Part shown: positions 8,901 to 38,767 of the stretch, in pieces
How positions within the stretch are numbered: position 1 is the stretch's first letter
How the letters are laid out: every line of letters begins with the position of its first letter
Assembly (NCBI GenBank): GCA_023334545.1
Contig: JAADVB010000181.1
Location: 1 to 38,767 of the forward strand
Source: Salisapilia sapeloensis
Lineage: Eukaryota > Oomycota > Peronosporomycetes > Peronosporales > Salisapiliaceae
Direction of reading: 5' to 3'
Length of the DNA stretch: 38,767 nt
Made by a program: the position numbers and the translations under genes
The notes under the pieces: model-generated
What the model was told of the DNA's origin: nothing
Databases searched by the model: none
What the model saw: the letters and a program-made list of their open reading frames with translations, nothing else

Positions 8901-10880
8901 CTCAGCACTCCTCCCAAGCCACCTGCGGCTCCACCCGCCCCTCCGGCAAATGCACCTGCCAAACCCCCGGCAGCGCCTCCTAAACCACCACCAGCACCTG
9001 TTAAACCACCGGCGGCGCCAATCGCGCCACCAGCAGCACCAATCGCAGCAGCAGCTCCACCACCACCGGTAATCGCCGCTGTCACGCCACCGATGCCTGC
9101 ACCAATTCCACCAGCGAGGGCTCCGATTGCGCCAAAGCCGGTGCCTACTCCGACAATACCGGCACCGATCAATGCAGCTGCATCTCCGGCGTCACCATCA
9201 TTGTCACCACCTTCACCGACCATGTCAACGGTTGGGAGTACGGCTTCACCCGCTTCTACCCCGCCTTCTCCATCTGCGTCAATTCCAGGTAGATCGATGG
9301 ACGTTTCCGGTGCGTCCGTAGTCGGGCTTGGTGGATCATCATCATCACCGCCGTCTACATCCGGAACTTCGACAGGGGTTTTATCTTCATCTGATTCACT
9401 CGGAAGACCCCCGATGATGCCTGCGATACCACCTCCCGATTCATCAATACCGCTACTTGCGCTACCCTGATTCGATTCCTTCGAGACAGGTTCTACAAAG
9501 CCAGGAATAATAGCTCCCGACCCACCACTATCACTGCCTCCAGTATTTCCACTCGAGTCGTCCGGAAAAATTTCTACACCAGCAGGCAGACCAGCTTCTG
9601 GCTCATCACTACCGTCGCTTCCGCGATTGCCACTTTGACTGTTCACCGGTCGTTGAGGCTGCTTTGAATCCTCCGATGGTGGTGCAGTTGTGGAACTCTC
9701 ATTAGCGTTTTGATTCGAACCACTAGAATCTACGCTGTCTACACTTGGCGATATGAAGCCAGGGACTGTACCACCGGACGGTTGTTCATTTGCTCTTGAA
9801 CTATCTCCAGCGTCCGCAGTCGAACCTGTATCTGGTGACATGGAGCCAGGCACAGTACCGCCCGATGGCTCTTGACCTTCTCCTGGAGAATCTGGAGCTG
9901 ATGGTATGAAGCCAGGAACAGTACCGCCCGATGGTTCGTCTTGATCTCCTGAAGCCCCTCCAGTATCTGGAGTCGCAGTCGGTACGTTCTGGAACACACC
10001 AGTCTGCATAATGTCAGTCGTCGACTGACCTGGTATGTTCTTGAACACACCAGATTCCTTCGTTTCACTCTCAGGCTGAGTCGATTCGCCAGAGCCATCC
10101 GCTTGATTTCCGAGTAGACGTGGAGGCGGAGTCGGTAAGTTTGTGAACTGAGATAAGTGTTCAGTTTGACTCGTAGGCTGCTCTGGTAAGTTTTTAAATT
10201 CCGATACGTGTTTAGTTTGACCTGCAGAAAGACCCGATGTCGTCGGCTGTGAAACTTGTGAGCTTTTGTCGGTAATATCTTGTTCACCCAAGAGATGTCT
10301 GTGCGAGACTTTTAATGTTTTCGCAGCTACTGTAGTTGCGAATCGCGTTTGAATCTCAAAATCACTGCTACGACTACCCTTATTCATCTTACTTGACGAT
10401 AATATTCGCTTTTTCTTCATCAATTGGTTATCGCTATCCACAACTTTCCGGAGAGTTTGCGTCCGGGTATTTCGTCTCAGGTCCGACAGTACCGCATCCG
10501 GATGGTAACTTTGCTGCGAATCGGACGACACGAATGCATGAACACTATAATAGTTTCGTTCCCTGGTAGTATCGCTTACACCTTCACTAGCCGATATTGC
10601 TTTAGCACTTGCATGAGGCGCTATTGCATGCTTTAAGACTCGTACATCTAGGATGAATTAAATAGAAATGATTACCGTTCCAGACGCCCTGCTGGTCCTT
10701 CGTATCGTGTACTGATACCTCATTATATCTAGCACTATCTCCTGACCATTGATCTGTTGCTGCTGCGTCCATATTGCGATTTGTACTCTTATGCAGATCT
10801 GAAAAACTCTTCGCATCAATTACGATCTGTACCGATTGTAAGAAGCTGAGTACGAGCAACTTTTGCAATATTTTATTCAT
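5960..10880 (-). CDS. Giant secreted Ser/Asp- and Gly/Ala-rich repeat protein
   Basis: Not a family I recognise. The start is ATG 10880 because it gives a clear signal peptide (MNKILQKLLVLSFLQSVQIV). A frame change near 10650 requires an intron ending CCTAG at 10648. The donor is either 10786 (139-bp intron, 1,593 residues) or 10675 (28-bp intron, 1,630 residues); both keep phase. Order of regions: Lys/Arg-rich head, (F)KN(L/I)P repeats, PSGGTVPGF repeats, Asp/Glu-rich linker, a long Gly/Ala-rich hydrophobic segment ending in a poly-Gly run, a Glu/Gln coiled coil (EMEMQQEQMQELEEQLENE), about 350 residues of Ser/Asp repeats, seven aromatic WxLQY...YYNP repeats, and a Pro/Glu/Lys tail ending LALGES. 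The composition suggests a matrix, wall or adhesive protein that is highly phosphorylated or glycosylated; this is inference only. Confidence 0.75.
6147..7335 (-). repeat. Seven aromatic repeats W-x-L-Q-Y-x-x-K-x-Y-Y-N-P
   Basis: Within the giant protein, seven copies of a roughly 19-residue module such as GWQLQYDNKTYYNPE are separated by 25-80 residues of Ser/Asp-rich linker. Approximate nucleotide positions are 7281-7335, 7015-7070, 6766-6827, 6586-6640, 6456-6504, 6231-6273 and 6147-6190. The middle three are nearly identical (LQYDNKTYYNP) and the outer ones are diverged, the last reduced to KWKFVYDKAAYYA. The IP-x-GW start and the YY spacing recall the first half of a WW domain, but the second Trp and the Pro-binding end are missing. 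Confidence 0.8.
7340..8420 (-). repeat. Ser/Asp-rich coding minisatellite
   Basis: Long run of Ser-Asp-Ser, Ser-Ser-Asp-Asp and Ser-Glu codons in the giant gene, most regular at about 7383-7500, where near-identical units of about 30 bp encode DSSSDDDSSSDSDSSSD-type sequence. Longer irregular repeats of about 150-200 bp ending in Pro-Glu-Ala-Gly-Ser occupy 7640-8180. This composition is typical of heavily phosphorylatable acidic matrix proteins. Confidence 0.8.
8583..9210 (-). repeat. Gly/Ala-rich hydrophobic coding repeat with poly-Gly run
   Basis: Encodes a stretch of about 200 residues rich in Gly, Ala, Leu and Ile (for example GAIGALAGGIGAGIGGVTAA), ending in an uninterrupted Gly run of about 11 residues encoded by GGT/GGC codons at 8583-8612. 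The antisense strand is also open and would encode Pro/Ala-rich protein, which I treat as a composition effect. Confidence 0.75.
9495..9940 (-). repeat. PSGGTVPGF(I/M) coding repeats
   Basis: Three clear copies of PSGGTVPG(F/S)(I/M) at about 9757-9785, 9842-9873 and 9906-9938, and a weaker copy (GAIIPGFVEP) near 9495-9520, spaced by Ser/Asp/Gly linker. A second short repeat, (E/V)F(K/Q)N(L/I/V)P, occurs upstream in the protein at about 9979-10200. Confidence 0.7.
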
Positions 10881-14563: not shown

Positions 14564-16843
14564 TCATGGTACAGGAGTCCCTGCCGTAGCAATTACACTA
14601 CCTCCGCTCGAAGCACTTTCATCTGACCCACCCGAGCTCGACATTCCGTCACTTCCCGATGACTCTTTGTTCGCCTTGCCGCCATCCTCTGAAAAGTCAG
14701 TCATGTCCGTTGGATTGCTCCCGCTAGTACTTCCTTCATCCGACATGCTAGATCCGGACATGCTCCAGCCATCTGACGATGTCTCCGCTGACTCGGTGCC
14801 TTCATCGTCAAGATCATCCGTCTCACCGCTTTTAGAGCCGTCACTTTTAAAGCTGTTGTCGACAGAACTAAAGGTTGACGTGCTTGAGTCATCAGAAGGA
14901 GCAAACATCAACTCGTCACCTTCGTCAATAAGGTCGTCAGTGCCATCACTTTTAGAGCCATCAATTGTAGAATTACCGTCGATAGAGCCCGCAGTCGATA
15001 CACTCGAGCCATTGGATGAGGTTGTCGTCGACTCGGTGCTGTTGTCATTAAAAATGTCAACAGGATTGGCCGTCTCGGAGTTATCATTTTCACCGCCCTC
15101 ATCCATAGAACCAGAGGTCGACACATTCGAGCTGCCAGGTGGAGCGCCGACCATCCCCTCGTTTTCGTCCAATGAGCCGGAGGTCGAAATGCTTGAGCTG
15201 TCGGACGGAGCATCAGTAGCCACGATGCTTTCTTCGAAAAGGTCATCATTATTGTCCGTTTCGCTGCCATCATTTTCAGAGGCGTTGTCCACAGAACGGG
15301 AGGTAGACATACTCGAGTTTTCCGATAGAGCATTAGTCACCTCTTCGTCTTCGTCTACAGAACCGGAGGTCGACGTGTTTGAGCCGTCAGATGACACGTC
15401 CGTTCCCTCTCCGCCTTCATTCACAGAGCCACTACCATCACTCGTCTCGGAGCTATCGCTTCGACTAGCTTCGCCTGACATATTAGAGGTCGACATGCTC
15501 GAGCCATCGGATGAGGTTTCCATTGAATCGGTGCCTTCATCATCAGCAAGTTTTTCACTGCTATCCATCGACGCGGATGTCTCACTATCACCGGATTTGC
15601 TATTTTCAGCTAGACTACCGTCAGTGTTGCTGTCAGCTGCTTTAGAAGTGATGTCTTCCTGGTCGGTACTTGCGTCAGAATTGCTACTGGCATCAGTTGA
15701 AGGAACAGATCTGAAAGAGGAGTGAAAAGTATTGTCGCTCTCATCCGACCCGTCGCTGTCGTCACTCTCGGTGGAGCCTGCTTCGCCGTCCAGTTCGTTG
15801 TTCGAATCTAAACTGGAGGAACCATTTGCAGTGTTAGTCCCTTCTTTCATATCATCATCGTCATCTGATCCTTCGGTGTCCACATTAGCCGAGAGGTCAT
15901 CCGAATCTTGTCTAGAGTCGGCATGAACTACTCCAGCTTCCTCCTCTTCTGTCTCTGAAGCGGACGAATCAGACGGCTTGTGTTGACTATGAGGACTCGA
16001 AGCGATACCTAATAGTTCAAAAGTAGCCTGTGATGGAGATGGAGGTTGGTCACTATCGACGGCCAAGTCATCCGAAGTGTCACTGTCACTCTCTCCTACA
16101 TCCAGGTTATCATTATTCTCGCTTCCAGTACGCTTGACAGCCGAGTCATCAGAAGTATCACTATCACTCTCCCCAACATCTAGGTTTCCACCAGTTTCGC
16201 TTCTACCATTTTTCTCACTCGAACTCGAGCCAGACTCGCTCTTCGCATCTCCTTTTTCAATCGTTATGTCCGCGCAGTTCACATACATTTGATCTCCTTC
16301 GAATTGGAGTTGGAGAGCACATGCACCTTTATCGACGCATACCGTAACGTTTGACGGAATTTGGACTTGGACCTTCTTCGCATCAGACGATGGATTATAC
16401 TTGTCATTCGAATACAGCGTCTGGTAGGCGTTAAAGAAGGGCTTTGTAGCTCCACTATCAATGGGCTGGACGATTGAAACGGACAACTTTCCAGCTTCCT
16501 TCCCTTCCAATTCGAACGTCACATCCAGTTCATCTCCGGGCGACAACACTTCCACCGGCGTTTTCCCAGCTTCATAGACAGTCCCGCCACATCCATTGTA
16601 CAGCGCATTGTTAAATTCACCATCATTTCCATCCTTTGTCTTCGTAGCAATGGTAACAATCTCTTCCAGACTCTTTTTCTCGAAATCTTCGTCCGAGACA
16701 TCAAACTTGGTCAAATTCAATCGATCTCGTAGTCCATCCGTAAGTGGACGAGGCTTTGGATTCTTTAGAAACGTTTGTCCCAAGACACTCGAGGCTAGGA
16801 GACTCGAGATGAAAAGGTACGTCGAGGTAGAAGGTATCTTCAT
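14564..16843 (-). CDS. Secreted Ser/Asp/Thr-rich protein with Cys-containing N-terminal domain
   Basis: About 759 residues. ATG 16843 is preferred because it gives a clean signal peptide (MKIPSTSTYLFISSLLASSV, cut near VLGQ) and because an initiator-like element begins at 16880, so the upstream ATG at 16882 would not be in the mRNA. The first 200 residues form a beta-rich domain with four conserved-looking Cys: NGCGGTVYEAGK, SPGDELDVTFEL, TVCVDKGACALQLQF and MYVNCADI. The GCGG start and the CAD(I/V) end resemble secreted LPMO-auxiliary/BIM1-like domains, but the metal-binding N-terminal His of that group is not present. The remaining 550 residues are Ser/Asp/Thr repeats (MSTSGSVDE-like) with NxS/T sites. 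No hydrophobic GPI tail is visible. Probably a wall or matrix protein. Confidence 0.72.
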   Translation of the reverse strand: MKIPSTSTYLFISSLLASSVLGQTFLKNPKPRPLTDGLRDRLNLTKFDVSDEDFEKKSLEEIVTIATKTKDGNDGEFNNALYNGCGGTVYEAGKTPVEVLSPGDELDVTFELEGKEAGKLSVSIVQPIDSGATKPFFNAYQTLYSNDKYNPSSDAKKVQVQIPSNVTVCVDKGACALQLQFEGDQMYVNCADITIEKGDAKSESGSSSSEKNGRSETGGNLDVGESDSDTSDDSAVKRTGSENNDNLDVGESDSDTSDDLAVDSDQPPSPSQATFELLGIASSPHSQHKPSDSSASETEEEEAGVVHADSRQDSDDLSANVDTEGSDDDDDMKEGTNTANGSSSLDSNNELDGEAGSTESDDSDGSDESDNTFHSSFRSVPSTDASSNSDASTDQEDITSKAADSNTDGSLAENSKSGDSETSASMDSSEKLADDEGTDSMETSSDGSSMSTSNMSGEASRSDSSETSDGSGSVNEGGEGTDVSSDGSNTSTSGSVDEDEEVTNALSENSSMSTSRSVDNASENDGSETDNNDDLFEESIVATDAPSDSSSISTSGSLDENEGMVGAPPGSSNVSTSGSMDEGGENDNSETANPVDIFNDNSTESTTTSSNGSSVSTAGSIDGNSTIDGSKSDGTDDLIDEGDELMFAPSDDSSTSTFSSVDNSFKSDGSKSGETDDLDDEGTESAETSSDGWSMSGSSMSDEGSTSGSNPTDMTDFSEDGGKANKESSGSDGMSSSGGSDESASSGGSVIATAGTPVP
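14760..15520 (-). repeat. Degenerate repeats encoding SS..STSGSxDE
   Basis: About nine imperfect units of roughly 75-105 bp in the second Ser/Asp-rich gene, each encoding a core like SSxxSTSGS(V/M/L)D(E/N) followed by an acidic spacer ending NDGSE-like. A separate pair at about 16075-16190 encodes NLDVGESDSDTSDDxAV twice. These are coding minisatellites and likely vary in copy number. Confidence 0.65.
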
Positions 16844-16863
16844 GAAAAGTGTCGGCTGGCGAT

Positions 16864-16880
16864 GAAAAGTAAAAATGAGC
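16864..16880 (-). promoter_or_regulatory. Oomycete initiator-like element
   Basis: On the minus strand this reads GCTCATTTTTACTTTTC, a close match to the oomycete initiator plus flanking-region consensus (GCTCATTYYNCAWTTT). It lies about 33 bases upstream of ATG 16843, which supports that start for the secreted protein. Confidence 0.6.
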
Positions 16881-17031
16881 ATGACAAGCTTTCCTTCCCT
16901 CCCTTCCCTTCCATGACGCTTGTATTAAGTATTATCCAGCGTACATTCCATTTATCAATTCGAATCACATCCACATACATATCTCACGAAACACATCCAA
17001 GGGCATAAGTATATTCCTACCACAAATCTAT

Positions 17032-20539: not shown

Positions 20540-23074
20540 ATGGACAAACCCAAAGTGCCAAAGTTCTCGTACTCTACCTCCATGGCAGACACGCGTGGAT
20601 GTGACCAAGCACCGTCGGTCGCTCAAGCAAAAGAATGGTTTCGAACGGTCATCCTTCCTCGACGTAAATGGGATGAGAACACAAAGAGCTATCGTCTTGT
20701 GGAAATGGGTGAAGACACGACTGGCTCTGAGCTCTTTCCAGTCTTTGGTACCAATCTGCGAGACCTTAGTCAATTCGGCATTGGCATCGGACTATACTTT
20801 CGCATGTTACTGCATCTAGCTGTGCTCATGTGCATCCTGTCTGCAGTTTCGATACCTGCCATCGTCTACTTTCTAAGTGCAGACTATTCTGGACCAATGG
20901 AAGAAAGACGTGTTCAAGTGGATGGACAGTTGGAAAGCGTCGACTGGCGCGTATGGGGTACAGCCGTGTGCACTCGCCATGAGCCAAATGGGACCACAAA
21001 CGATTGTCCTCTGGACGTCACACAATTCGGAGTAGACATAGTCTCGATTATCGTTCTCTGCCTTTATTGCATCATCGTGGAAGCACTGACGGAGCGAGCG
21101 CAGCGTCTCATTGATGCTCAGAATCAAACGGCAGCAGACTACTCAGTCGTCGTAAAAGACCCGAACGCGGATGCGTGGGAAGTAGATGAATGGTATGACT
21201 ACTTTCGTCAATTCGGAACGGTCAAAATGATCACTATAGCCGTGGATAACCACGCTCTGCTCTCGTCCTTGGCTCATAAACGATATTACGAAAGCATGGT
21301 CCGCATGGGCTCGACCAACCAGAGCTTGACGGAGCAAACGCTCCAAGAAGCCATGAATCAGGACAAAGCCATCCGTCGTACGCTTCGTCGAAAAGTATCC
21401 TTCTTCCGTCGCATGCTACAAGCCCTTGGTTTCTCTCGCGACCTACCATACTGGCAAGCAGCAGTCGCCAAGGAGCGACAGCGAGTGGCAGCACACTTGC
21501 GTCAAGGTCATTTCCCGGTCTCGGCTGTCTTTGCCATGTTCGAGACGGAGAAAGACAAGCAGCGCTGTCTTCTAAAGACACAGACAGGTCTTTGCGCTAC
21601 GTTCTACGATGCGAGCTCTCGTGTCGACTCTGCACATCGCTTTCGTGGGTCCAATGTTCTTCACATTGAAGAGCCAGTAGAACCTACGTCTGTCCTCTGG
21701 TCATCCGTTGGTGTCGGATGGCTCAAACGTTTCTCCCAACAAGTCTGTACGTTCATCATCTTAGTAGGCATGATAATCGCTGTCTACTTTGGTGCCACCT
21801 ACCTCAAGCATATACTCTACCCATCTGACCTGTCGGAAGGCGAAGCAAACAGTCGAGTGAAACAGTTTGTCCTTGCCTACGCTTTGTCTTTCTCTGACTT
21901 TGTCGGTTGCTACATCCTGTCGTACGTCGATCAATTGGAAGACCATCAGACGAAAGAACGGGAGCAACTGTCTCGACTGAATAAACTCCTGGTCTTTCGT
22001 GGATTCAACGGAGCAGTCGTACTATACTTGCTCATGGACTTTACAGACACCTTGTCGGAACGGAACTTAATGCAGATCCAAGCGTTGCTCATAGCTAACT
22101 TGACGACGAACCCTGTTCTCCAACTAATCGGTCCATATAGCCGGGTGATGCGTCTACTCTTTGCCAGAAGTGCTAAGACACAACGCAAGTTGGATCAGTA
22201 CTACTCGGGAGACTACTGGCAGCTATCCGAGCGCTACACGGACATCACCAAGTCTGTCGGTACGGCACTCTTCTTCAAGCCTTTGCTACCAACGGGACTA
22301 GCCATTACGATGTTATCTTTAATCGTCAATTACTGGGTTGACAAGTACTGTTTACTTCGGAAGTGGAAGACACCTCCCAAGTACGACGGTCTCCTCGCAC
22401 ATGCTTCGAGGTACCATTTACTAATCATCGCCCTCGCCTCGTTAATCATGGTCGGACACTGGTACAATGGATGGCCGTTTGATACTGAAACACAAGACAA
22501 ACTGAAAGACTTGAGCTTTTATAGCGACTATATGGATGAAGATGTAGTCCAAGTACTAGCGCGCATCGTCCCTCTACCTCGTGAGTTTGATAATATCGTG
22601 CTACGGATCGGTATGATTATCCTGTGTTCCGGCATCGTGTTGATTTGGGTGATTGGTGTTATCCTTTTTCTGTCAAGTGTCATCTTTCGAACGTATCGAC
22701 GCTATGTCAGCGGTCGATTGCGTGGTAATACGAAGAGTGAGACACAGCTCAGTACGGTGCCAGCTTCTAGAGTCAAGAACTTGGATGGATATGTGCAGAC
22801 GTATGAAACACCCTTGTCCGACTTTGCTTTCATCTCGGTGCCTTTGCATGACTTTGATAACAAGTACATCTCGTGGACGGGGGAACATGAAGACTACTGC
22901 CTTGCGGATGATGTACTGAAGGATATCAACTTTGCTAACATGGTTGCAGAGAAAGATGTTACGAGGATCTTTGGTATCTGCAAACAGTATGACACGTCGG
23001 AGGAAACAAGTGAAGGATCTTGGGTTTCCGTGAAGAAGCCCCAGCAGATCAAAGGTAGGCAGGATGTCGTTTAA
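20540..23074 (+). CDS. OSCA/TMEM63/CSC1-type (DUF221) ion channel
   Basis: 844 residues without introns, start ATG 20540. OSCA/TMEM63 proteins are mechanically or osmotically gated cation channels of cell membranes. Visible are two N-terminal helices (about 88-113 and 165-185) and a cytosolic linker with an RRM-like segment (DYSVVVKDPNADAWEVDEWY). Then come the family tags AVFAMFETEKDKQ and IEEPVEPTSVLWSSVGVG, the latter matching the EAPxPxDIxWxNL motif. The 7TM channel region (about 400-720) includes TNPVLQLIGPYSRVM and LFFKPLLPTGLAITML followed by VDKY. It was compared with TMEM16/anoctamin, a distant relative, and the linker and motifs favour DUF221. An acidic C-terminal tail ends the protein. 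It is divergent from the VASt lipid-transfer gene. Confidence 0.82.
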   Translation: MDKPKVPKFSYSTSMADTRGCDQAPSVAQAKEWFRTVILPRRKWDENTKSYRLVEMGEDTTGSELFPVFGTNLRDLSQFGIGIGLYFRMLLHLAVLMCILSAVSIPAIVYFLSADYSGPMEERRVQVDGQLESVDWRVWGTAVCTRHEPNGTTNDCPLDVTQFGVDIVSIIVLCLYCIIVEALTERAQRLIDAQNQTAADYSVVVKDPNADAWEVDEWYDYFRQFGTVKMITIAVDNHALLSSLAHKRYYESMVRMGSTNQSLTEQTLQEAMNQDKAIRRTLRRKVSFFRRMLQALGFSRDLPYWQAAVAKERQRVAAHLRQGHFPVSAVFAMFETEKDKQRCLLKTQTGLCATFYDASSRVDSAHRFRGSNVLHIEEPVEPTSVLWSSVGVGWLKRFSQQVCTFIILVGMIIAVYFGATYLKHILYPSDLSEGEANSRVKQFVLAYALSFSDFVGCYILSYVDQLEDHQTKEREQLSRLNKLLVFRGFNGAVVLYLLMDFTDTLSERNLMQIQALLIANLTTNPVLQLIGPYSRVMRLLFARSAKTQRKLDQYYSGDYWQLSERYTDITKSVGTALFFKPLLPTGLAITMLSLIVNYWVDKYCLLRKWKTPPKYDGLLAHASRYHLLIIALASLIMVGHWYNGWPFDTETQDKLKDLSFYSDYMDEDVVQVLARIVPLPREFDNIVLRIGMIILCSGIVLIWVIGVILFLSSVIFRTYRRYVSGRLRGNTKSETQLSTVPASRVKNLDGYVQTYETPLSDFAFISVPLHDFDNKYISWTGEHEDYCLADDVLKDINFANMVAEKDVTRIFGICKQYDTSEETSEGSWVSVKKPQQIKGRQDVV

Positions 23075-26751: not shown

Positions 26752-28242
26752 CTAGACATTCGCCGACTTCTGTGGGTCCTCAATCGTTTTATCCAGCAAG
26801 TAATTCTCCACTAGTTGATGGCTCCAGCTAATGGTCGAAGTCACCGAGTTCGCCACCAAGTCCGTCAGGAGCCGCACACTCTTCTCATCCACTTCCCGAC
26901 CTCCTTGCTCTCCTCCATGCATGCCATGGAAACTATCGTTATTAATCTCTGGTTGGATGATAAAACACGTCTGGACGAGCGTATAGTCATGCGGTGTCGC
27001 GTGGATGCGTTGCAAGAGACTATAGCCTCTCTCTTGAAGCGTAATACCGTCCGCGACACCGTGCGAAAAGTTAAACGGACTCGAGTAACATCGCCAGGCG
27101 ATAACGACTTTATCATTATCCACATGCTTTCGGAACGTCTGACGGACATCAAAGTCGCACGTCATCTGATTATGCCGCAGCTCCAGTCCAAAGCGTTCGA
27201 TGATAATGTCTGCAGCCAGATCCTTGTGCTCACATTGCTCCAAGACCTTGGCGGCCAAGTCTGATGTGCGACGGAAGCTCTGGTGATTGTAGCTATACCT
27301 TTCCGGGATATTCGTCAAGCAGTCGGCAAAATGCTGCCACGTCGCTTCCGCCACAGGTTCGAGACTAAACGGCATCACTTTGCTACCAAAGATGTCCATC
27401 ATGGAGCCTGTCGGACCTTCCTGCCGGACTTGAACGCCGCGACGAGAAGCAGAGAGTCGCTGACAACCGTCCGGACCGAAGACAGCTTCCACGCGACTTA
27501 GCGCGTGGTCCGTGTCGTCCAGTAAGGCTTTAAAAATTTTCACTTCAGTCTTCTCGTCTCCCATTTCATGCAAATGTTTCTTCCGACGACGTTCTGCCTG
27601 TCCTTCCTCCGACTTGAGGATACGTGTCGTCGTGCGTTTATTCAAATCGGCCTGTAGCTTCCGCGCGACTTTCATCTGACCTTCTAATAGGAGCTTGAGG
27701 CGAATGTTTTCTCGCTCGGAACGTTCGCGGGCTTCAAATTGACGAGAAGCGAGGTCCTGCCACACGTATGCACCATGTGTTGCGGACCAGGAGCTCGCTC
27801 GCACGGCTGACGCGACCCACGAGGAGCCTGCAGGCGCCGACACTGGCCGCAAACGCTGCCGACGCTCGCCCTCCGGCTGCTGCTTCATTTCATGTAGCTG
27901 CTGTTCGAGCTGCTGTGCGCGACGACGCAAATAGATGAGCTCCTGCTTGCGTTCGTCCCGCGCCCTATTGGAGTTCGTGCTACGAGAAGCCGTGAGTGGC
28001 GGCTGCGAGACGCGCCGTCGCTTACTAGTGTTCCTATCTGTACTATTGTTGCTATTGGTATTGGTGTTCGCTGACTGTGGTGCTGGCAGTTGAAGCTCCG
28101 TGGTGTCTTGCAAGAGGGTCTTGAGTTCATGATCATCTTCGGTCGAGTGATCATCCATTTCATCCAGTAGATGCAAGACCGAGGACAGATCATCGTCTGT
28201 GAATTGCTCGTGAATCGGGAGCACGGGTGACAATTCCGTCAT
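26752..28242 (-). CDS. bZIP-like/START-like protein, copy 1
   Basis: 496 residues, intronless, ATG 28242. Likely a nuclear regulator or lipid sensor of the family annotated in oomycetes as M96 mating-specific. In order: an acidic/hydrophobic N-terminus (DDDLSSVLHLLDEMDD); a basic patch SKRRR; a bZIP-like segment NSNRARDERKQELIYLRRRA leading into a Gln-rich coiled coil (residues about 88-125); and a second helix SERENIRLKLLLEGQ. Then comes a START-like domain from about residue 215 to 480, with the strand IIERFGLEL, the basic strand KVVIAWRCY, GITLQERGYSLLQR and the closing amphipathic helix LVANSVTSTISWSHQLVENY. It groups with copies 2 and 3 by these tags. It lacks the junction intron seen in those copies. 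The ligand and DNA target are unknown. Confidence 0.78.
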   Translation of the reverse strand: MTELSPVLPIHEQFTDDDLSSVLHLLDEMDDHSTEDDHELKTLLQDTTELQLPAPQSANTNTNSNNSTDRNTSKRRRVSQPPLTASRSTNSNRARDERKQELIYLRRRAQQLEQQLHEMKQQPEGERRQRLRPVSAPAGSSWVASAVRASSWSATHGAYVWQDLASRQFEARERSERENIRLKLLLEGQMKVARKLQADLNKRTTTRILKSEEGQAERRRKKHLHEMGDEKTEVKIFKALLDDTDHALSRVEAVFGPDGCQRLSASRRGVQVRQEGPTGSMMDIFGSKVMPFSLEPVAEATWQHFADCLTNIPERYSYNHQSFRRTSDLAAKVLEQCEHKDLAADIIIERFGLELRHNQMTCDFDVRQTFRKHVDNDKVVIAWRCYSSPFNFSHGVADGITLQERGYSLLQRIHATPHDYTLVQTCFIIQPEINNDSFHGMHGGEQGGREVDEKSVRLLTDLVANSVTSTISWSHQLVENYLLDKTIEDPQKSANV

Positions 28243-28907
28243 GCTACTAGTCCGATTCCTACTTGATCCGTTCGTATTGTTTCTACCAGTCGAGGTCGTA
28301 CGAGTGCGTACGTTTCACAAGTAACATGTTATCTGAAATGCCTTGGAGGCCAGGAGAATATATGATTCGAACGAACCACTCATCATTAGCATCTGCCGGA
28401 CGGACGGTATGAGATACGGAGCACGACAGAGAGGCTCGAGTCAGAGCAGGTGGTTGTGGATGAAGAAAGCGACTAAGATAGAGTGTCCGTAGACGTACAA
28501 GCAGATACGAACGACGTGCAACTTTCTATCGTACAAAAGAGCTCGAAAGGGTTGACAAGATATTTTTCCTACTTGGAGAAGAAATGAAAAGTCGTCTATT
28601 CCAGGATACACGTAGTACATTAAGTGTCCCTTGGATTCACATGTAACCGTCTGATAACGGCAAGATGGTCCAGACCACGTACCTTCAAGTGCATATAAAG
28701 CAGACGAAAGAAAGGATAATTGGTATTCCTTACGAGAATCTATCTCTACGGCTTGAAGACATGACGATACACGGTAGCATCAGATACAAACACCCAGTCA
28801 ATTACGCATATTCGACTCGACGTGTGCGTACGCTCCTGTCTACGCCAGACATCGTCGAATGCTGTGTACGCTAGGTTTAAATCAAGTACATCAAGCATAC
28901 GAATCGA
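28243..28907. other. Intergenic spacer
   Basis: Promoter side of bZIP-START copy 1 and 3' side of copy 2. A 69-codon plus-strand frame at 28665-28874 has no support. No other signal seen. Confidence 0.5.
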
Positions 28908-30285
28908 CTAGACACATCGTAGTTGTGGAATCGATGGCTGGGTACACGCTTCTGCAAAGTGTTCGACTAATTTACTCTCCACCGCTCGCTGGGCAGAGCT
29001 AATGTTGCGGACGGTCGAGTCTAGAATGAACTCGGCTAGTGCCTCGACATGTGTCTGGGAGGCAGCATTCGGATCCGTCACGCGTGGCTCACCGACGTAC
29101 CTCGTACGCACGAGAGCATAGTCACTCGACAGCTCATTCGATTTTTCAATGACAAAGTACCCGCGCTCGATAAACTGGACACCTGTCGTCGGCTCAGAGG
29201 CAAAGTTCTGCGGATCAATGTGCGCTCGCCAGATGATCACGACGCGATCTTCTTCCACACGTCGACTCCACAGCTCGTGCACGCGGAAGCTCGCAGCTTT
29301 CCCATCTACATGTAGCTCAATCCCAAAGCGTTCTAATATCGTATCGGTCTCGTCGGACGGAATCTGCGACTGGAACTGTTGACGTTCATTTCCTGCTGCG
29401 ACTGTCTTCCAGTACGCTGCACCTGTGCTCCGAACGTCGAATGGAAGACGCTTACGGAGCATAATCTCAATGTTAACGCTATTCTCTGTCTTGTTCGTTC
29501 GAGCCGTGACGTCGTCGACGAACGATCGGAAGCCGACGGTCGTATTGAGATTCGATTCCATCGGGACACCGTCCGTCGCTTCCTGGAATAGCTTTTCGTT
29601 ATTTTCAAGTAGTTTATTACGAATCTCTCGATCCGTCGGATGCTCCTCCGTGTCATAGATGCGATAGAAGCGACCTTCATTGCCTAAGAAGGAAGATTTC
29701 TACCTCGAATACGTTAGTTGCAAGCACTATCAGCATCCACAAGTAAGCACGTACCGATGACTCAGTCTGACTACGCCATTGCTGCTGCAATTGATGGATC
29801 TGGAGCAATTGTCCGGCCATTTGAATACGTAGACTCGCATTCTCCTGCTCGGAGTCGGTACGTGCAACGGCTCGTTGGACTGCCATTTGTCGCCAGCTCG
29901 CTTTATTACGGTCTTCTGGTGCCATAGCCTGCCAGTCGAGCTCCTTCATCGCTTTCTTCTCTTCTAGCTCTTGCACATGCTTCAATAACGTTGGCACGAC
30001 GACGTCCCGAAGGTGTTTATGCTCCCTCGTGCGCTCTTCCCGAGCTTTGTTCGGGTTAAAGCCAGGCGGTCGGACCTTCTTCGGCTTAGCCCCATTGCTC
30101 GTCTTCTTTTGCGATGTCTTGCGTCGACTCTGCTTGGGTTTACTAGTGGTGGAGGACGTCGTCGATGGGACGCTCGTGCTATTGCTACTGCTACTGCTAG
30201 AAATCTCTGTGTACTTGTCTAAGAATGAAACGACGTCTTCAATAGTGCCCCAGTCGTCTTCTAGTAGCTGCATGTCCTCCCCCAT
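28908..30285 (-). CDS. bZIP-like/START-like protein, copy 2
   Basis: Two exons, 30285-29755 and 29699-28908, joined across a 55-bp GTACGT...GTAG intron with a CTAAC branch site; 440 residues. ATG 30285 (MGEDMQLLEDDWGTIEDV) is chosen because an initiator-like element lies about 35 bases upstream and because the paralogues also start with an acidic LLxx(D/E) block. A Ser/Thr run and a basic patch lead to the bZIP-like segment NPNKAREERTREHKHLRDVV and a long Gln-rich helix. The START-like domain follows: ILERFGIELHVDG, RVVIIWRAHI, GVQFIERGYFVIEK, closing helix ISSAQRAVESKLVEHF. The spliced junction reads TESSKSSFLGNEGRFYR. Confidence 0.78.
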
Positions 30286-30307
30286 GACGTCCTTACGCTG
30301 TCTGCCG

Positions 30308-30322
30308 AAGATTGCCGAATGA
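30308..30322 (-). promoter_or_regulatory. Oomycete initiator-like element
   Basis: On the minus strand, TCATTCGGCAATCTT, a good match to the TCATTYYNCAWTTT initiator/flanking consensus, about 35 bases upstream of ATG 30285. It argues against the longer open frame starting at GTG 30342. Confidence 0.55.
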
Positions 30323-30739
30323 CTCGAATGAATGGCATGCACTTCCTCCGGATGCTTTGTACCTGTCAGTGGGTAAAAACGGGTCTATTCAGATAACATT
30401 ACATAGACTACATTCAGGTCATATAATTTTATATTGGTTGTATTTTGTATAAAACGATACTATCCTTAGAGAAAGGCTTAATTAGATATTATTCAGTCTC
30501 AGAGGGCACGCTATGCCAGTTGATGATGGGGACATTGAAGATACGTGCGTATGGTCATGGATACGTCGACACTACTTCAACGTAACGTTCAGTTGCCACG
30601 TATCATTGGTAGCTTGGAGGCTGCGAAGCGATCTAGTTGGACGAAATAGAAATGTACACGACATGAGTGTATCGTATGATTGGAATCAGAACACGCTAGA
30701 TTCTAGGATCAATGGCCTTCCATGCTTTCTCAGCTTTAG
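30323..30739. other. Intergenic spacer
   Basis: Upstream region of bZIP-START copy 2 and 3' flank of the PrsW gene. A 76-codon plus-strand frame at 30513-30743 runs into the convergent PrsW stop and has no recognisable features. Otherwise empty. Confidence 0.45.
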
Positions 30740-32193
30740 CTAGACATTAAAGACCGACCGGACTTTTGCGGTGCTACCTCCGAATCCAATGTCTAGACTT
30801 TCATCTTCATCGTCGCTTAGGATCGCTGTGCCATCACTTCGTTCGCCCGACTCGAGGTCTGTTGCTACTTGCGAGTACGTCGAAGCTCCGTCCATTCGCT
30901 GCATCTGGCGCCAGAGGTACCATCCACTGCACCCGATGATGATGCAACAACCAACGACCGGCAAGACTTCTTCTAGCATCACTGGGTGTATGTCGATCCA
31001 CGCCTGCGGAACAAGGGACATGTACAAGAAAACAGTAAAGTCGAAGGAGCCATGAGCCAGGACAGCTGGCACAAGTATCTTAGCCTTGGTCTTGTACGAT
31101 CCCAAGGACTTGGACACAGCCGCAGATGCCGACGACGATGCATTCTCCACCGCCTGGCGACGATGACGACGCACTTCCTGCATATGCGACACGAGTCGGA
31201 CGCCAGTGAGGCCACCGCAGACAGCGTGGATAGGTGCACTCGTGCATGCTCGAAGCAAGGCTGTCACGAGGCGCTTGTGGGTCGTACTTTGCATGATAAC
31301 GTATCCAATATTTTCAATAAATGAAAAGCCGAGAGCACCGGAGATGACAGCAGCAAATACGACAAAGTTGTGGCTGTCGTGTCGGTCGGCGGAATACAAG
31401 AGTCGTTTCGGGTGACACAACCATCCTCGCTGCCTCCGACGCTGCGGAATGGAGGCAGACGATCGACTTGATGAGCGAGTGCACCTTCGACAGCATTTCA
31501 TCTGACAAGCACATTCGCCTTGGACGATCCATAGCTTGACCGCTTCTTCCACCAGCCCTGCGACAATGTAGGCCATGAGGAAGAGAAAGATAAAGTAACC
31601 AAGTGTCTGCTCAATATCTAACTTGTGGAGGATGTGACCCCATCGTGTGGAAGCAGCTGCAAGCTTGGGAGCACCGAGTGCCTCGATAGTAAGGTCTTGA
31701 TACTGTTGTTTAATAGATTCCAACTGGTCGGCAAAGCACACGAAGAGAAAGATAGGTAGCAATAGGAATTGCAATAGTAAAACAATAATAGATCCGGGCA
31801 CAATTCCACCTATAAAGCAGTAGACGAGCTGAAGGAGTTCCCGGTCACTGTGCATGGCATGGCGAGTAGGACATGAATTAGTTTATAACATGTCATTTCG
31901 ACTGTATAAGACGCATAGGAGCGTACGTGATGCCGCGGGTGGATTGCTGCTTTTTGATGTATGTTGTGAAAAGAGCTGGAGGTATGGACAAGATGACAAG
32001 TATCAGCGCTAATTCCGCTTGGCCCAAGATCTACGTCCGAAGCTTCGATTAGAACGCCTTGTACGCAACAAAGCAGCATATAAATGGATAGAAAGATCCG
32101 TACCGCAAGTATGAAAAACAAGAGCAAGCATCCAATCGCATATTGCGTCCGACTGCCCGTCCAAAGCCTCGAGAATGCGGCGCGAATGGCCAT
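30740..32193 (-). CDS. PrsW-type intramembrane metalloprotease
   Basis: Three exons, 32193-32104, 32030-31927 and 31847-30740, with 73- and 79-bp introns in matching phase; 433 residues. The first join restores a membrane helix (LALILVILSIPPALFTTYI) and the second gives QSTRGITDRELLQLVYCF. All four PrsW (peptidase M82) motifs are present: EEAVKLW (Glu165-Glu166), GFSFIENIGY (Glu243), APIHAVCGG (His272) and HGSFDF (His330, Asp334). About eight helices are seen, with a Cys/Arg-rich loop between motifs 1 and 2 (CQMKCCRRC) and an acidic cytoplasmic tail. In bacteria PrsW cleaves a membrane anti-sigma factor; the eukaryotic substrate is unknown. It sits between two bZIP-START paralogues, 106 bp from the stop of copy 3. 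Confidence 0.85.
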
Positions 32194-32299
32194 CTCGCGA
32201 ATTGTGTTGTGCTTGTACCTTACCTGTACAGCCCCTCAAACGTAATACTAACAAAAGAAAAAGAAAAGAAGTGGTATTTCGAAAGAAAAGAAAAACAGC

Positions 32300-33682
32300 T
32301 CAAGCAACGCATTCCGGAACGAGGCTGTCCAGCGTCCCGTTCAACTCGCGATCGACTAAGAAATTCTCAATCATCTGGTGACTCCGTCCGATATTGCGGG
32401 ATGTCACGTCCAGGACGAACTGAGTTAGCGGTGACATGCGTTCAGAGGCAGTGCAGTCGTCATGAATCACTGGTGTGATCTTGTACAGCGTCTGCATCAA
32501 CGTCATCTTATCTTCGACTTTCCGGATCACATAGTAGCCCTGCTCAAAGAAGTGCATGCCTAAGGATGCATTCGTGGTTTTATCCAGTGGCTCAATATAG
32601 GCCCGCCAGATGATGACTGTCCGCTCTTCTTCCACACGCTTTCGCCATATCTGGTTGATGCGGAACACCTCCGATTGGCCTGGCGTGTGCATTTCCACTT
32701 CAAACGTTTCGTAAATGGTGTACAGCTCGACATCGCCAAACACCTGCGGGGTACGTTCATAGTAACGGAAGGGTGCGCGCTCTTCAGCCAAAGAAAAGTT
32801 ATCCCACACACAGTGCGCAGTTGTGTGCCAAGCAAAAGGTAACATCATATCGGCAAAGATATCGATGTAAAGACCATTCGGACCGTCGGAATGAATTTTC
32901 GCATGACGGTTCTTCGGTTCGGCAGTCGCTGCGTGCTCTGGAAAGAGCTGGTCGACATCGCGAAAGGCATCTTGAATATTTCGAAGTAACTCTTCAAATA
33001 CTTGCGGGTCCTTCGCTTGACGCGGAGTAGCGCGCAACTTGCTACGGCAGGAAGCGGCAGTCGTATTCGCATCGGTCTTTAGAGGTAAAGTATCAGTTAT
33101 CAGGTGGTACTAGAAAGGTACAAGTATTAAACAACGTACGTCGAGTTGGTTGCGACGTTCGATGAGTTTGAGCAAGCTCTGAGATGTCTTATGATGAGAT
33201 TCGACAGCCAGCTTTAGTCGAGTATTCTCCGTTTCAGCACGACTGCGCTCTTCGCTCTGTCGAATCGCCATCGACCTCCATAACTTGATGCTACGAGAAA
33301 CATTGGGACTGGCAGACTCAGATGAGTTTGAAGTGGAGCTCATCGTATCGCTCGATCGCTTCCCAAGCGTTTGCTTCATGTTCACAACTCGAGCTTCCAT
33401 CTCCTGGACTTTGTTTCGGAGATACAAGAGCTCCTTTCGACGCTCTTCCCTCGCCTTATTCGGATTGTAATTACGCTTCTTCTTGCTCTTTGGTTCAGGG
33501 GCTACAGTCGCAGGAGGCAAGAAGACTGGAGCGGGAGACGCAGCTTCCGATGAAGAGGACGTAGAAGAGCACTCATCGATAAACGACAGCGCCGCTGCGA
33601 GCGTAGCACCTTCGTCGGCATCCAGCCCTAGCGGTGCCTCTGGGTCTAACGACAGAAGCGATGGCAAGTCTTCCTTCTCCAT
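32300..33682 (-). CDS. bZIP-like/START-like protein, copy 3
   Basis: Two exons, 33682-33140 and 33076-32300, around a 63-bp GTACGT...AAAG intron in phase 0; 439 residues. It starts with the acidic block MEKEDLPSLLSLDPEA and ALSFIDE. A Pro/Ala linker and KSKKKR patch precede the bZIP-like NPNKAREERRKELLYLRNKV and its heptads, then a second helix (AETENTRLKLAVE). The START-like domain carries GPNGLYIDIFADMMLPF, the basic strand RTVIIWRAYI, GMHFFEQGYYVIRK and the closing helix SRNIGRSHQMIENFLVD. It is closest in pattern to copies 1 and 2. Confidence 0.8.
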
Positions 33683-34089
33683 CGTAGAGAGCGTTTAATG
33701 GAGTGCGACTGACTACGGTTATCAGGTGTCTGCCCCGTCTTTGCGTTGATAAGGATCCCTATTTGCGCAATATGTACCCAGCATGTCGTCTAGATGCTGA
33801 GTATGGAAACGGGGTGTACTCGATGAATATGTGAGTGTTGGTTCACATATCCGCTACCTTGGATTCTCCTCTGCATATGCCTGCTTCCATGCTCGTATTC
33901 TAGCTTCCTTTAATCTAGTCATGCCGCAGTAGTATCCAAGTTACCATGTAAATGCGTATAGTACAGAGTCTTATCGACGATCGAAAGCAACGTTTCTATT
34001 CTCTTGGTCTCTGCCATTAAATTCTATTCACGTATGTGATGTAGTCGTTAAACCTCTACGGGAGTACTGCAAAATGGCTACTGATTATG
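33683..34089. other. Intergenic spacer
   Basis: Promoter of bZIP-START copy 3 and 3' flank of copy 4. No coding or RNA signal seen. Confidence 0.5.
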
Positions 34090-35517
34090 CTAAAGCTGAT
34101 ACATTTGTAGACTACCACCTTCAGTACACGCATTTCGTAGTGGAGCTTTCTCTTTCGAGTCTTCATCCAAGAGCAATCGGACAGTCAAGTTGGCTATGTT
34201 CGTAGACACTGTTCGCTGTGCCCGAACGACATTCAAGAGTTCACCCAATCGATTGTCGCTCCAGTCCAATTTGTCGTTATCTGGGATCGACCGATAGGTA
34301 AATCCCATGTGCATCACCGTCATTATACCATCATCCCTCACCTCCTGCGAACATATAAAGCACAATGTTGTGTCGAGAGTTATACCAGTCACTGCTTTGC
34401 CCATGATTTGCATCGGACGACCTTTTACTCTGGTGATAATGACGTCGCGATCGGCTTCTCGGTAACGACGGACCATTCGCTTGCTTACGGTATGAAAGGA
34501 AGTGCTGGAAAGATCCATGAGGCCAGTTTTCTCAGCGAACGTATCGTCCGAAACAAAGTACGGTAGTCGAAAGTAGACGTTTAAACCACCAGTTTCATGC
34601 ACCAATAGTCTCCAAATGGCTTTGGACACGACCTTCCTCGTAAGTGGTAGATCGATTTGACGTAGAATCGATGTGCTTATACGTCCAGACGCATCTGGCG
34701 TCGTACATACAGATTCTTTATCTTTTGGTAACTCGCCATGAATGTGATGGAGATTCGAAAAGTATTGGTCCACATGCTCATGCGCTTGATGCATTTCTTC
34801 TGAAAGAACTTGAAAATCATGTTGGTCTTGTACTTGGAACGAAAGTCGGTCTTCGGCTGTTATTTGAGCCACCGTATCGGACACTTTGGTGTCGTGAAGG
34901 GACAATCGAAAGTCCTGTTGACGGATGGAAAGTTAGACTAGATGAGATGTATATTTATACCAGGGATGGAAGCTTCTACGTACACTGGACGAAACAGAAA
35001 AGTCTTTTTGAACGGCTTCCGACAGTTGTAGAGCTTCAAAGGCTTGGCGTTCCAGTATCTGGCGCAAACGAGTGTTCTCTTGCTCTGCCTGTCGACGGTC
35101 TTGCTGACGTTCGCGACTTTCAGCTCGTTGATCTACAAAGTCTTGTGTGTCATGCACCCCCTTTTGAACTTTCAATCGGTTCAGCTGAGAATGGAGCCGT
35201 TCAGCTTGTTGGCGCAAGTCTTGCAGCTTCTGCTTCTGAGAAAGTGAACGAGTATTCTTCCTCGATTCATGTTGTGCTGTACTCGACGCACTATCACTTG
35301 AAATACTACTAGAATCAAGCAAACGGGATGGGTTGCCACCGCTATGATATATGTAGTTGTCGTCAAGTTCGCTGTTCCATGCCACAAGCTGTAGCTCTTC
35401 TTCAAGTGAGATGTTGATAGATGAATAGATCAAGTCATCAGAGTCCTCTGGTAGATGCAATGGCTCATCAGTCAGAAATTCTTCACTCAACATATCTAGC
35501 ATTTCGTTGTCTTCCAT
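34090..35517 (-). CDS. bZIP-like/START-like protein, copy 4 (second subfamily)
   Basis: Two exons, 35517-34984 and 34914-34090, around a 69-bp GTACGT...AACAG intron in phase 0; 452 residues. ATG 35517 (MEDNEMLDMLSEEFL) is supported by an initiator a few bases upstream; the open frame extends further but without support. The basic segment is weakened (TRSLSQKQKLQDLRQQAERL, no Asn-x7-Arg), but the Gln/Leu coiled coil is strong (LHSQLNRLKVQ, then ENTRLRQILERQ). The START-like domain carries LTRKVVSKAIWRLLVHETGG, LPYFVSDD, RMVRRYREADRDVIITRVKG, WSDNRLGELLNV and the closing helix ANLTVRLLLDED. It pairs with copy 5. Confidence 0.75.
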
Positions 35518-35518
35518 T

Positions 35519-35532
35519 TTGTAGTAATGAGC
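35519..35532 (-). promoter_or_regulatory. Oomycete initiator-like element
   Basis: Minus strand GCTCATTACTACAA, an exact GCTCATT core, directly upstream of ATG 35517 of bZIP-START copy 4. It implies a very short 5' UTR (about 12 bases) if used. Confidence 0.5.
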
Positions 35533-36270
35533 AGGGAGAAGTTGGTGAGTCGGGCTATGAAAATCCACGCAAAAAATGCTGGTCAAGAAGCGTGTCAGAT
35601 GTGCGGTGCCTAGAAGGTACCACTGACACAGTCTTCAACGTATCTTCAATATTAAGACTGCTAGGATCATTTTCGATGCTACATGTACCTTTGAAAGATA
35701 CTTCGATGATAGAACATAATCATGTATCGTAGTTATCGTTCTCTTATAGCATGCTCTGTTCTCCGTGCTGCTGTAGTCTCAGAAAGTAGTTGAAGTTTTT
35801 CAAGAGAAGAGAATGCTTGGATTGACAACTTGGACGAGGCATGCGAGCGCGAAGAAATACACGTTCGTAGTGCTTGTCCGGCGTATGGACATTTCCTGAA
35901 TATGATGCAATAGCTTGAAGATGGTGATGAAACATGAAGTAGACAGATAGTTTAAAGCAGTAACCTAGAAGCCTAGCTGTTGAATACGCTGGAAATGAGA
36001 TCACCTAATGGACCAAAGCTATGGCTACGACAGGCATACCAATTAACAAGGTTGCTATTGCTTACTCGTTTCAATATGATAACACCAAACACATCCGAAT
36101 CACACGAGCTACACTTTGATAGATACAACAATGATTGGGGCATTGTAGACACGGATATACCAAAAGATATTCGCGTCGACTTACATCGCTAACAGGTCAA
36201 ATGCAACCTCATAGATTCTATTGTCAGAATCAAAACAATCATTTGTTTGCTTGGTACATATAATTCTATT
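35533..36270. other. Intergenic spacer
   Basis: 0.74 kb between copies 4 and 5. A plus-strand frame at 35980-36192 ends in a protein-like stretch (FDRYNNDWGIVDTDIPKDIR) but is too short and isolated to call. Nothing else seen. Confidence 0.45.
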
Positions 36271-37458
36271 TCATTGTGGTCTCGTGTTTTCCTCATCTAG
36301 CACACGAAACATCAGATTGGTCACTTCCTTGGATACAATACGTTGAGCTTGTGTCACGTTTAATAGCTCGCCTAGCTTTGTATCCATCCAATCCTTGTTC
36401 TTATCATCCGGAATCGCTTCGTACGTCGTGCCCATTCGAAAGACCGAATTGGCCTCGTCACCATTTAATACAGGTGTAGAGGTGATAACTCCAGTCGTGA
36501 CAATCGTCACACCATGCACAGGCTTATCCATGATACGCAACGGTCGACTGCGCGAATGGATAATCGTCACGGTACGTCCATTACTACGAAACTGACGCAC
36601 GACTCGTTTCCCGATCATGTGGACGGCAATCTCGTTTCCTCTTATCGTTCCAATCTTTTGAGCGCAAACGTCATTCGAGACAAAGTATGGCTCTTGATAG
36701 TATGCCTTGGTACCACCACCTTCATGTGCTAGCATTCGCCATATTGCCCGAGAGACAACGTCTACGTGAAGCGGTATCGCGACTTGATGCATGACACTCG
36801 TGTTCATGCCACCATCGCCATTCTGAGCCGTAAACCAAAACGGGAAATCTCGATCAAAGCTACCGTGCATCTGCTCTATATCGCTGAAAAAGTCATCAAC
36901 ACGGTCGTGTGTCGCATTGACATGCCCTAGTAATTTGACAAAGTCTGCATGATCCTCGTCCGAGTACAGACCAGAGTCTCGATAGTCACCGACTGCGTGC
37001 AAGCCTTGCGGCCATACCTCAAAAGCTCTTGACATTGTCATTGCTTCCAACGCTTGCTTCTCTACTAAGCGTCGAAGTCGAGAATTCTCATTCTCAGCAT
37101 GGTCTCGAGCTTGCTTATGCACGTCCACACTGTCTTGGGCTTTTTGCGTGTTCTGTCTACTCAATCGAGTCTGAAGCTGCTGTAACTCGGTCGTCAATGT
37201 GCCCACTTTTTCCCGTAGCTCCAACAGCTCACGTTTCTGTCTGCGCATCGGCCTCTTCTTTTTCACTGGCTTACGTGCAGATTGCTCCATTCCGTTGGTA
37301 CTGGTAGATGAGATATCATCGTTTGTCAATGGAGTGGACTGGAGCTTCACGTCACGTGGGACTTCCGATAAAAGTTCGTCCAAATCCTGCAGAAGCTCCA
37401 CTGGAGGTTCGAACATCACGTCATCTCGCAGCAGATCAAAGAGACTGTCGTTTGGCAT
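36271..37458 (-). CDS. bZIP-like/START-like protein, copy 5 (second subfamily)
   Basis: 395 residues, intronless, ATG 37458; the frame extends five codons further to a GTG that I do not use. The acidic/hydrophobic N-terminus is strong (SLFDLLRDDVMFEPPVELLQ). A basic run VKKKRPMRRQKRELLELREK leads into heptad-rich VGTLTTELQQLQTRL and NENSRLRRLVEKQ. The START-like domain shares most tags with copy 4: VVSRAIWRMLAHEGGG, EPYFVSNDVCAQKIG, IGKRVVRQFRSNGRTVTIIH, MDTKLGELLNV and a closing helix with TNLMFRVLDEE. The intron that splits copy 4 at the coiled-coil/START junction is absent. Confidence 0.76.
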   Translation of the reverse strand: MPNDSLFDLLRDDVMFEPPVELLQDLDELLSEVPRDVKLQSTPLTNDDISSTSTNGMEQSARKPVKKKRPMRRQKRELLELREKVGTLTTELQQLQTRLSRQNTQKAQDSVDVHKQARDHAENENSRLRRLVEKQALEAMTMSRAFEVWPQGLHAVGDYRDSGLYSDEDHADFVKLLGHVNATHDRVDDFFSDIEQMHGSFDRDFPFWFTAQNGDGGMNTSVMHQVAIPLHVDVVSRAIWRMLAHEGGGTKAYYQEPYFVSNDVCAQKIGTIRGNEIAVHMIGKRVVRQFRSNGRTVTIIHSRSRPLRIMDKPVHGVTIVTTGVITSTPVLNGDEANSVFRMGTTYEAIPDDKNKDWMDTKLGELLNVTQAQRIVSKEVTNLMFRVLDEENTRPQ

Positions 37459-38161: not shown

Positions 38162-38767
38162 TTATCCGCGAATTGGTATCACCTTTACTGGCAAATCACT
38201 ATCCACTGATAACTCGAGTCCAGGAGTGGAGACGATTTGGTTCGGATCCTCCACCATCTTCAAGTCAAACTTGCTGAGCATCGAGCACATCACGATCTGT
38301 AATTCTACCATCGCCATCCGCTGTCCAATGCATCGTCTTGGTCCAGTAAGCTATGATAATAAACGACGTCGTTGAGCAAACGGGCAGTATAGAACAATAG
38401 AAAGGAACGTACGAAGATCGGGAACTGGGTCGGCGTAAAAGCAATAATGCCTCCTGTCGACGGATCAATCCAGCGCTCGGGCTTAAACTCACGCGCATCT
38501 TCTCCCCAAACACTAGGCAAGCGTCCTGTTGCTTGCATCGACGCCATCACGTCAGTGCCTTTGCTCACGTACGTCCCGTCACTCAGCGTAGTCGACTGAA
38601 GGGCACCTCGCGATGAAAGAGGAATCGTCGTATCTAGACGAAGTGTCTCTCGGATCACAGCCTCCAAGTAATGAAGCTGATCAGCCTCTTCCACGGTCGG
38701 AACATCCGAGTTTTTGTTCAAAAGATGAGGTAGCTTGGTCTTGATCTCAGCGCGAATTTTATTCACA
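38162..38767 (-). CDS. Cytochrome P450, C-terminal part, cut by window edge
   Basis: Haem-thiolate monooxygenase, probably of the CYP86/94-like fatty-acid hydroxylase type common in oomycetes. The frame is open at the right edge, so the 5' part lies outside. Exons 38767-38413 and 38350-38162 flank a 62-bp GTACGT...CATAG intron that interrupts the haem-binding loop. The visible order is the K-helix EAVIRETLRLDTTIPLSSR (ExxR = ETLR), the meander motif FKPERWID, and the spliced haem signature FLTGPRRCIGQRMA (F-x-x-G-x-R-x-C-x-G, complete only after splicing). The C-terminus ends VKVIPIRG. Without the spliced exon the gene would look truncated. Confidence 0.9.

Follow-up and report, generated by a model that had tools for sequence, protein, structure and literature searches.

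Five neighbouring genes of the oomycete Salisapilia sapeloensis encode a candidate zipper and START-like protein family

Five divergent paralogues on one contig

The window analysed here is a complete contig of Salisapilia sapeloensis (C92; 38,767 bases) within a 19.5-Mb genome. An earlier note on this DNA had proposed a tandem array of five same-strand paralogues, each joining a bZIP-like segment to a START-like domain, and genes A to E were found where it had placed them, all five on the minus strand (Table 1). We read their products as belonging to an old oomycete family whose proteins have an acidic N-terminus, a bZIP-related zipper helix, a second coil and a START-like domain, and give the whole explanation developed below a probability of about 0.45.

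The gene models were read from DNA alone. Genes C and D each contain one short in-frame intron with a GTACGT donor, at a point after the second coil and before the START-like part. In gene B the frame is open only with a GT donor 4 nt downstream of a usual-looking GTACGT, and the downstream donor was taken since the GTACGT donor would shift the frame. This intron thus has two overlapping donors 4 bases apart (GTACGTGC; 29747-29754, minus strand). With the upstream, usual-looking one, the protein would end ahead of the START-like part; the double donor reflects a switch or else an error in the assembly.

Table 1. Genes A to E and their predicted domains
Feature	Coordinates	Strand	Extent	Description
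Gene A	26752..28242	-	496 aa	single open frame, intronless
Gene B	28908..30285	-	436 aa	exons 30285-29751, 29683-28908; donor uncertain
Gene C	32300..33682	-	439 aa	exons 33682-33140, 33076-32300
Gene D	34090..35517	-	452 aa	exons 35517-34984, 34914-34090
Gene E	36271..37458	-	395 aa	single open frame, intronless
Gene A, bZIP-like zipper helix	27880..27978	-	residues 89-121	predicted model and register test
Gene A, second coil	27565..27783	-	residues 154-226	predicted model
Gene A, START-like domain	26773..27555	-	residues 230-490	predicted model and structure comparison
Gene B, basic/zipper segment NPNKAREERT	29956..30057	-		placed by residue count
Gene C, basic/zipper segment	33377..33475	-		carries NPNKAREERRKELLYLR tag; translation and register test
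Gene E, continuous helix (zipper and second coil)	37018..37248	-	residues 71-147	predicted model
Gene E, START-like domain	36283..36960	-	residues 167-392	predicted model and structure comparison

Homology among the five genes is beyond chance: gene C as query matched A at 4.7e-34 and B at 1.0e-27, and gene E matched D at 8.0e-52. A gene on contig C420 was matched by both E (7.8e-17) and C (1.4e-7), which joins the A/B/C group to the D/E group. Homology searches placed about 17 family loci in the genome, with five on the window's contig, four on C37 (two of them adjacent), two on C417 and one each on C161, C420, C346, C423, C15 and C246. This count is a lower bound, the C161, C346 and one of the C417 loci having been found as exon pieces; the C246 locus, which was matched only in part, over the coil region, and contains a stop, is the least sure. 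Relatives of gene A were found in Phytophthora, Peronospora, Hyaloperonospora, Peronosclerospora, Nothophytophthora and Globisporangium, so that the family relatives found lie within Peronosporales and Pythiales. The gene A homologue search (3 relatives) scored only the 7996 candidates sharing most words, and that with gene E gave no match at 0.001. In the Phytophthora palmivora entry P0024 the tail of one copy continues into a complete second copy, from which it follows that tandem neighbours probably occur in this species as well.

In a phylogenetic tree, support was 90/82 for the grouping of A with Phytophthora proteins, 94/93 for the pair of B and C and 100/100 for that of D and E, and the terminal branches of A to E measured 1.1-1.9 changes per site; the tree program warns that long branches meet, and the deeper joins are unsure. 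Given these groupings and long end branches, a recent tandem duplication of A to E was rejected and the copies are taken to be old. The proposed tandem array therefore stands as five neighbouring genes, but the copies are old and the run is interrupted between B and C by an open reading frame (ORF) for a PrsW-family intramembrane metalloprotease (PF13367, 4.2e-11; 30740-31855, minus strand). The conserved tags that the earlier note had described hold for part of the array: the first is exact in C only, with variants in A and B, B and C carry IIWRA(H/Y) and A a variant of it, and neither tag occurs in D or E.

Predicted fold and zipper register

The domain order of the family was established by computation. 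Structure prediction, suggested earlier as a check on the START fold, was run on A and E, and both of these models display a helix-grip fold, with an N-terminal helix, a curved sheet and a long C-terminal helix; a START-like fold is thus predicted for the only two proteins folded. The best VIA matches of both models are lipid-binding START domains. The predicted fold resembles those of the lipid-transfer domains of STARD3, STARD4 and CERT over 189-199 residues, but identity is only 5-11%, a match to the START profile PF01852 is lacking, and the domain is coupled to a zipper.

The claim of a bZIP-like segment was borne out in its zipper register and its profile similarity to real bZIPs, but not in the invariant Asn or in Pfam. 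For the register test, a position matrix was built from 16 bZIPs of the same genome, one of 17 segments (L045b) having been dropped as off the register pattern. The common bZIP register, in which a Leu nine residues after the Arg is followed by heptads, was the best match in 10 of 15 family members, including A, C, D and E, with local-shuffle frequencies in these ten ranging from 0/2000 up to 0.05. At the picked register, A and C resemble bZIPs in having Ala at +7, Arg at +8 and Leu at +18, whereas D and E are without the Ala/Arg pair. The Asn of the N-x7-R/K pattern was found at position 0 in none of the 15 members.

The family profile (19 rows) aligned to a six-row bZIP group with a score of 50.8 and a probability of 83% (59.0 on match columns), as compared to 19.7 for the reversed profile and maxima of 27.1 in 200 heptad-block shuffles and 40.0 in 200 N-terminal-part shuffles. 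Against 12 other bZIPs, the alignment begins at +4 after the Asn (P 2e-4, probability 47%). We read the zipper as a bZIP helix that would have lost its former DNA-reading half, with D and E reduced further; convergence is possible.

Oomycete bZIP factors, as described in the available parts of two reports (PMC4046829, PMC11267843), share this register, and replacement of the Asn is common among them. In P. infestans, motifs were reported for one of seven Cys-type and one of five Val-type Asn-replaced bZIPs, and roles in heterodimers or as blockers are considered for such proteins (PMC11267843). The accessible text on the 71 P. sojae candidates describes no additional domain save one PAS and lists Arg among the Asn-replacing residues (PMC4046829); some members of the present family may therefore already be in bZIP lists of the P. 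sojae type.

Other bZIPs and neighbouring genes

The Pfam bZIP model matches 18 places in the genome, none of them on C92. Four canonical bZIPs, L042, L044, L057 and L059 (contigs C131, C41 twice and C382), share a conserved C-terminal domain that lacks annotation, contains a GY(V/L)(I/L)(G/C) motif and is START-like by eye; L060 and L061 also have this domain, in a reading frame that gives no bZIP match. A link between this domain and the START-like part of the family is not claimed. The profile score of 20.4 exceeded all 100 column shuffles (maximum 17.1), but the probabilities were only 1.3% and 1.2%, and 0.06-0.15% with two rows only. With the family hidden Markov model, L042 and L044 scored at E 0.07-0.2 and were outscored by four other bZIPs (L036, L043, L037 and L035; E 0.0007-0.006), which gives no grounds for a special kinship with the L042 group. 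L039 (contig C393) joins a bZIP to a SnoaL-like domain (PF12680, 7.2e-7); the joining of such small-molecule-pocket folds to bZIPs may be more widespread in oomycetes.

Beside the array, a partial cytochrome P450 (PF00067, 4.4e-19; 38305-38766, minus strand) runs off the contig end. Elsewhere on the contig lie an ORF for an anoctamin-type channel or scramblase (20540-23074, plus strand; PF04547, 28.3 bits against a cut-off of 28) and, on the minus strand, a SET-domain ORF (2950-3747; PF00856, 27.5 bits), a 1486-aa Ser/Asp-rich open frame with repeated LQYD.K.YYNP-like motifs (5960-10420) and a 772-aa frame with a hydrophobic start, a long repetitive Ser/Asp-rich tail and no Pfam match (14564-16882).

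Candidate function and alternatives

A to E may be lipid-controlled gene regulators. While the fold, register, domain order and missing Asn are computed, we infer every later step. The proteins would pair as dimers through the zipper and second coil, and a lipid in the START-like domain would set the amount or assembly of the dimer, by analogy with plant HD-ZIP IV proteins, in which START ligands are reported to guard against turnover and to affect dimer levels (PMC10126025, available part). The acidic N-terminus would act on transcription. A, B and C might contact DNA weakly with the half of the basic region that is left to them, or with a canonical bZIP as partner, and D and E might serve as partners that do not bind DNA.

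Sterol would be one candidate lipid. The cyclase and elicitin results fit a sterol scavenger: no C-terminal domain of an oxidosqualene/hopene cyclase was found in the genome, for which the N-terminal domain was not searched and completeness is not established, and there are 18 elicitin matches. One weak squalene-epoxidase-type match (24.2 bits) may be another flavoprotein, since the same model also matches E. coli. The predicted fold is about equally similar to ceramide and cholesterol binders, and the sterol sensor suggested earlier is therefore only one possibility.

A number of results weigh against this explanation. Five of the 15 members (B, L050, L052, P0027 and L049) do not pick the expected register as best, and register scores are low, at 15 to -15 bits with one shifted match of 24, as compared to 63 in two true bZIPs each scored with itself left out. 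The controls for the zipper were shuffles and a reversed profile, without an unrelated coiled-coil family. The Pfam bZIP profile has no match in A to E or in 24 family rows, and among solved structures the 19-row family profile retrieved a GCN4-zipper-derived peptide at E 0.66 but not a single bZIP transcription factor, whereas the canonical bZIP group retrieved GCN4 at 8.3e-5. In addition, the predicted helix of A begins at residue 89, two residues past the Asn position. On the side of the fold, PF01852 likewise has no match in A to E or in the 24 rows, which is why we call the domain START-like and do not assign it to PF01852, and a family sequence search against solved structures gave no significant match. 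The A and E models were built on 24 and 12 rows, with mean pLDDT of 66.6 and 67.6, falling to 44-55 in places in A and to 46-58 in the C-terminal helix of E; the top Foldseek match of A is CoxG, and whole-model TM-scores are low. Nuclear import is also uncertain. Basic clusters are present in four of the five proteins, the exception being D, and in the accessible part of a P. sojae study predicted monopartite nuclear signals proved insufficient in each of eight fragments (PMC5288373).

These points bear on several alternatives. The first, which we regard as somewhat unlikely, is that A to E are cytosolic lipid carriers or scaffolds with no DNA role, in which the coils would assemble and the START-like domain would move lipid or hold it at membranes. 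The VIA matches to lipid-binding domains, the missing DNA-reading half and the lack of a basic tag in D and E suit such proteins, but Pfam finds no membrane-targeting partner domain in A to E, and an acidic start followed by a bZIP-related coil is the layout of a transcription factor. Unlikely, too, is a zipper that is an unrelated coiled coil, bZIP-like by convergence, with the remaining reading unchanged; the failed Pfam and structure searches and low bit scores would be explained, but the profile alignment scores above the reversed profile and above all 400 shuffles, which were of two types, and extends to the 12 other bZIPs. We think it quite improbable that the proteins are transcription co-regulators whose START-like domain has lost its ligand and serves protein contacts only: divergence past profile detection in all members scanned would agree with this, as would the distance of D and E from A to C, which would suit relaxed ligand binding, but the fold appears to be retained in the A and E models despite large sequence divergence. 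That A to E are M96 mating-specific oospore-wall proteins, a name carried from a source by 12 of 32 listed relatives of A, including several of the Phytophthora proteins that group with it, is hardly tenable given their composition.

Published M96 proteins, in the available text (PMC5999078), are secreted and carry signal peptides. Their first third is rich in His (typically 14%), Gly/Ser/Tyr make up about 50% of the remainder, the median mature size is 271 aa, and induction in mating is >100-fold. A to E, in which no signal peptide was found (judged by hydropathy only), contain 13-16% Gly/Ser/Tyr overall, with His no higher than 3.6% in the first third, and have an acidic start. We therefore take the name on the relatives to be a transferred error, and with it falls the link to mating that the earlier note had drawn from this database label. 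In two cacao pathogens, an "M96 mating-specific family" is reported, in the part available, to have expanded and to be positively selected (PMC7341134), a finding that may concern either true M96 or the zipper-START family. In Phytophthora and downy mildews, where family members are often named after this unrelated oospore-wall protein, studies of expression or selection may wrongly connect the family with mating.

The analogy with plant HD-ZIP III/IV proteins holds for the domain order, in which, going by the A and E models, a leucine zipper precedes a START-type domain in a single protein, but none of the five proteins matches the Pfam homeodomain, the zipper is related to that of bZIPs and is followed by a second coil before the START-like domain, and the lineage is unrelated. 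By titles and abstract starts, in a search outside which most subscription journals lie, no paper was found that describes an oomycete protein fusing a zipper to a START domain; the protein concerned in PMC9715676 is, in the available text, a host protein. A more tentative proposal, which we consider rather doubtful, is that oomycetes, apart from plants, joined a bZIP to a START-type pocket and so gave rise to a large class of lipid-gated regulators. A to C would since have lost the DNA-reading half and D and E all DNA contact, and lipid would set the balance of active and blocking partners in organisms apparently unable to make sterols. If the zipper-START reading is true, oomycetes would have a second, independent version of the lipid tuning of transcription factors seen in plants, and gene-level lipid sensing in sterol-scavenging oomycetes would become testable.
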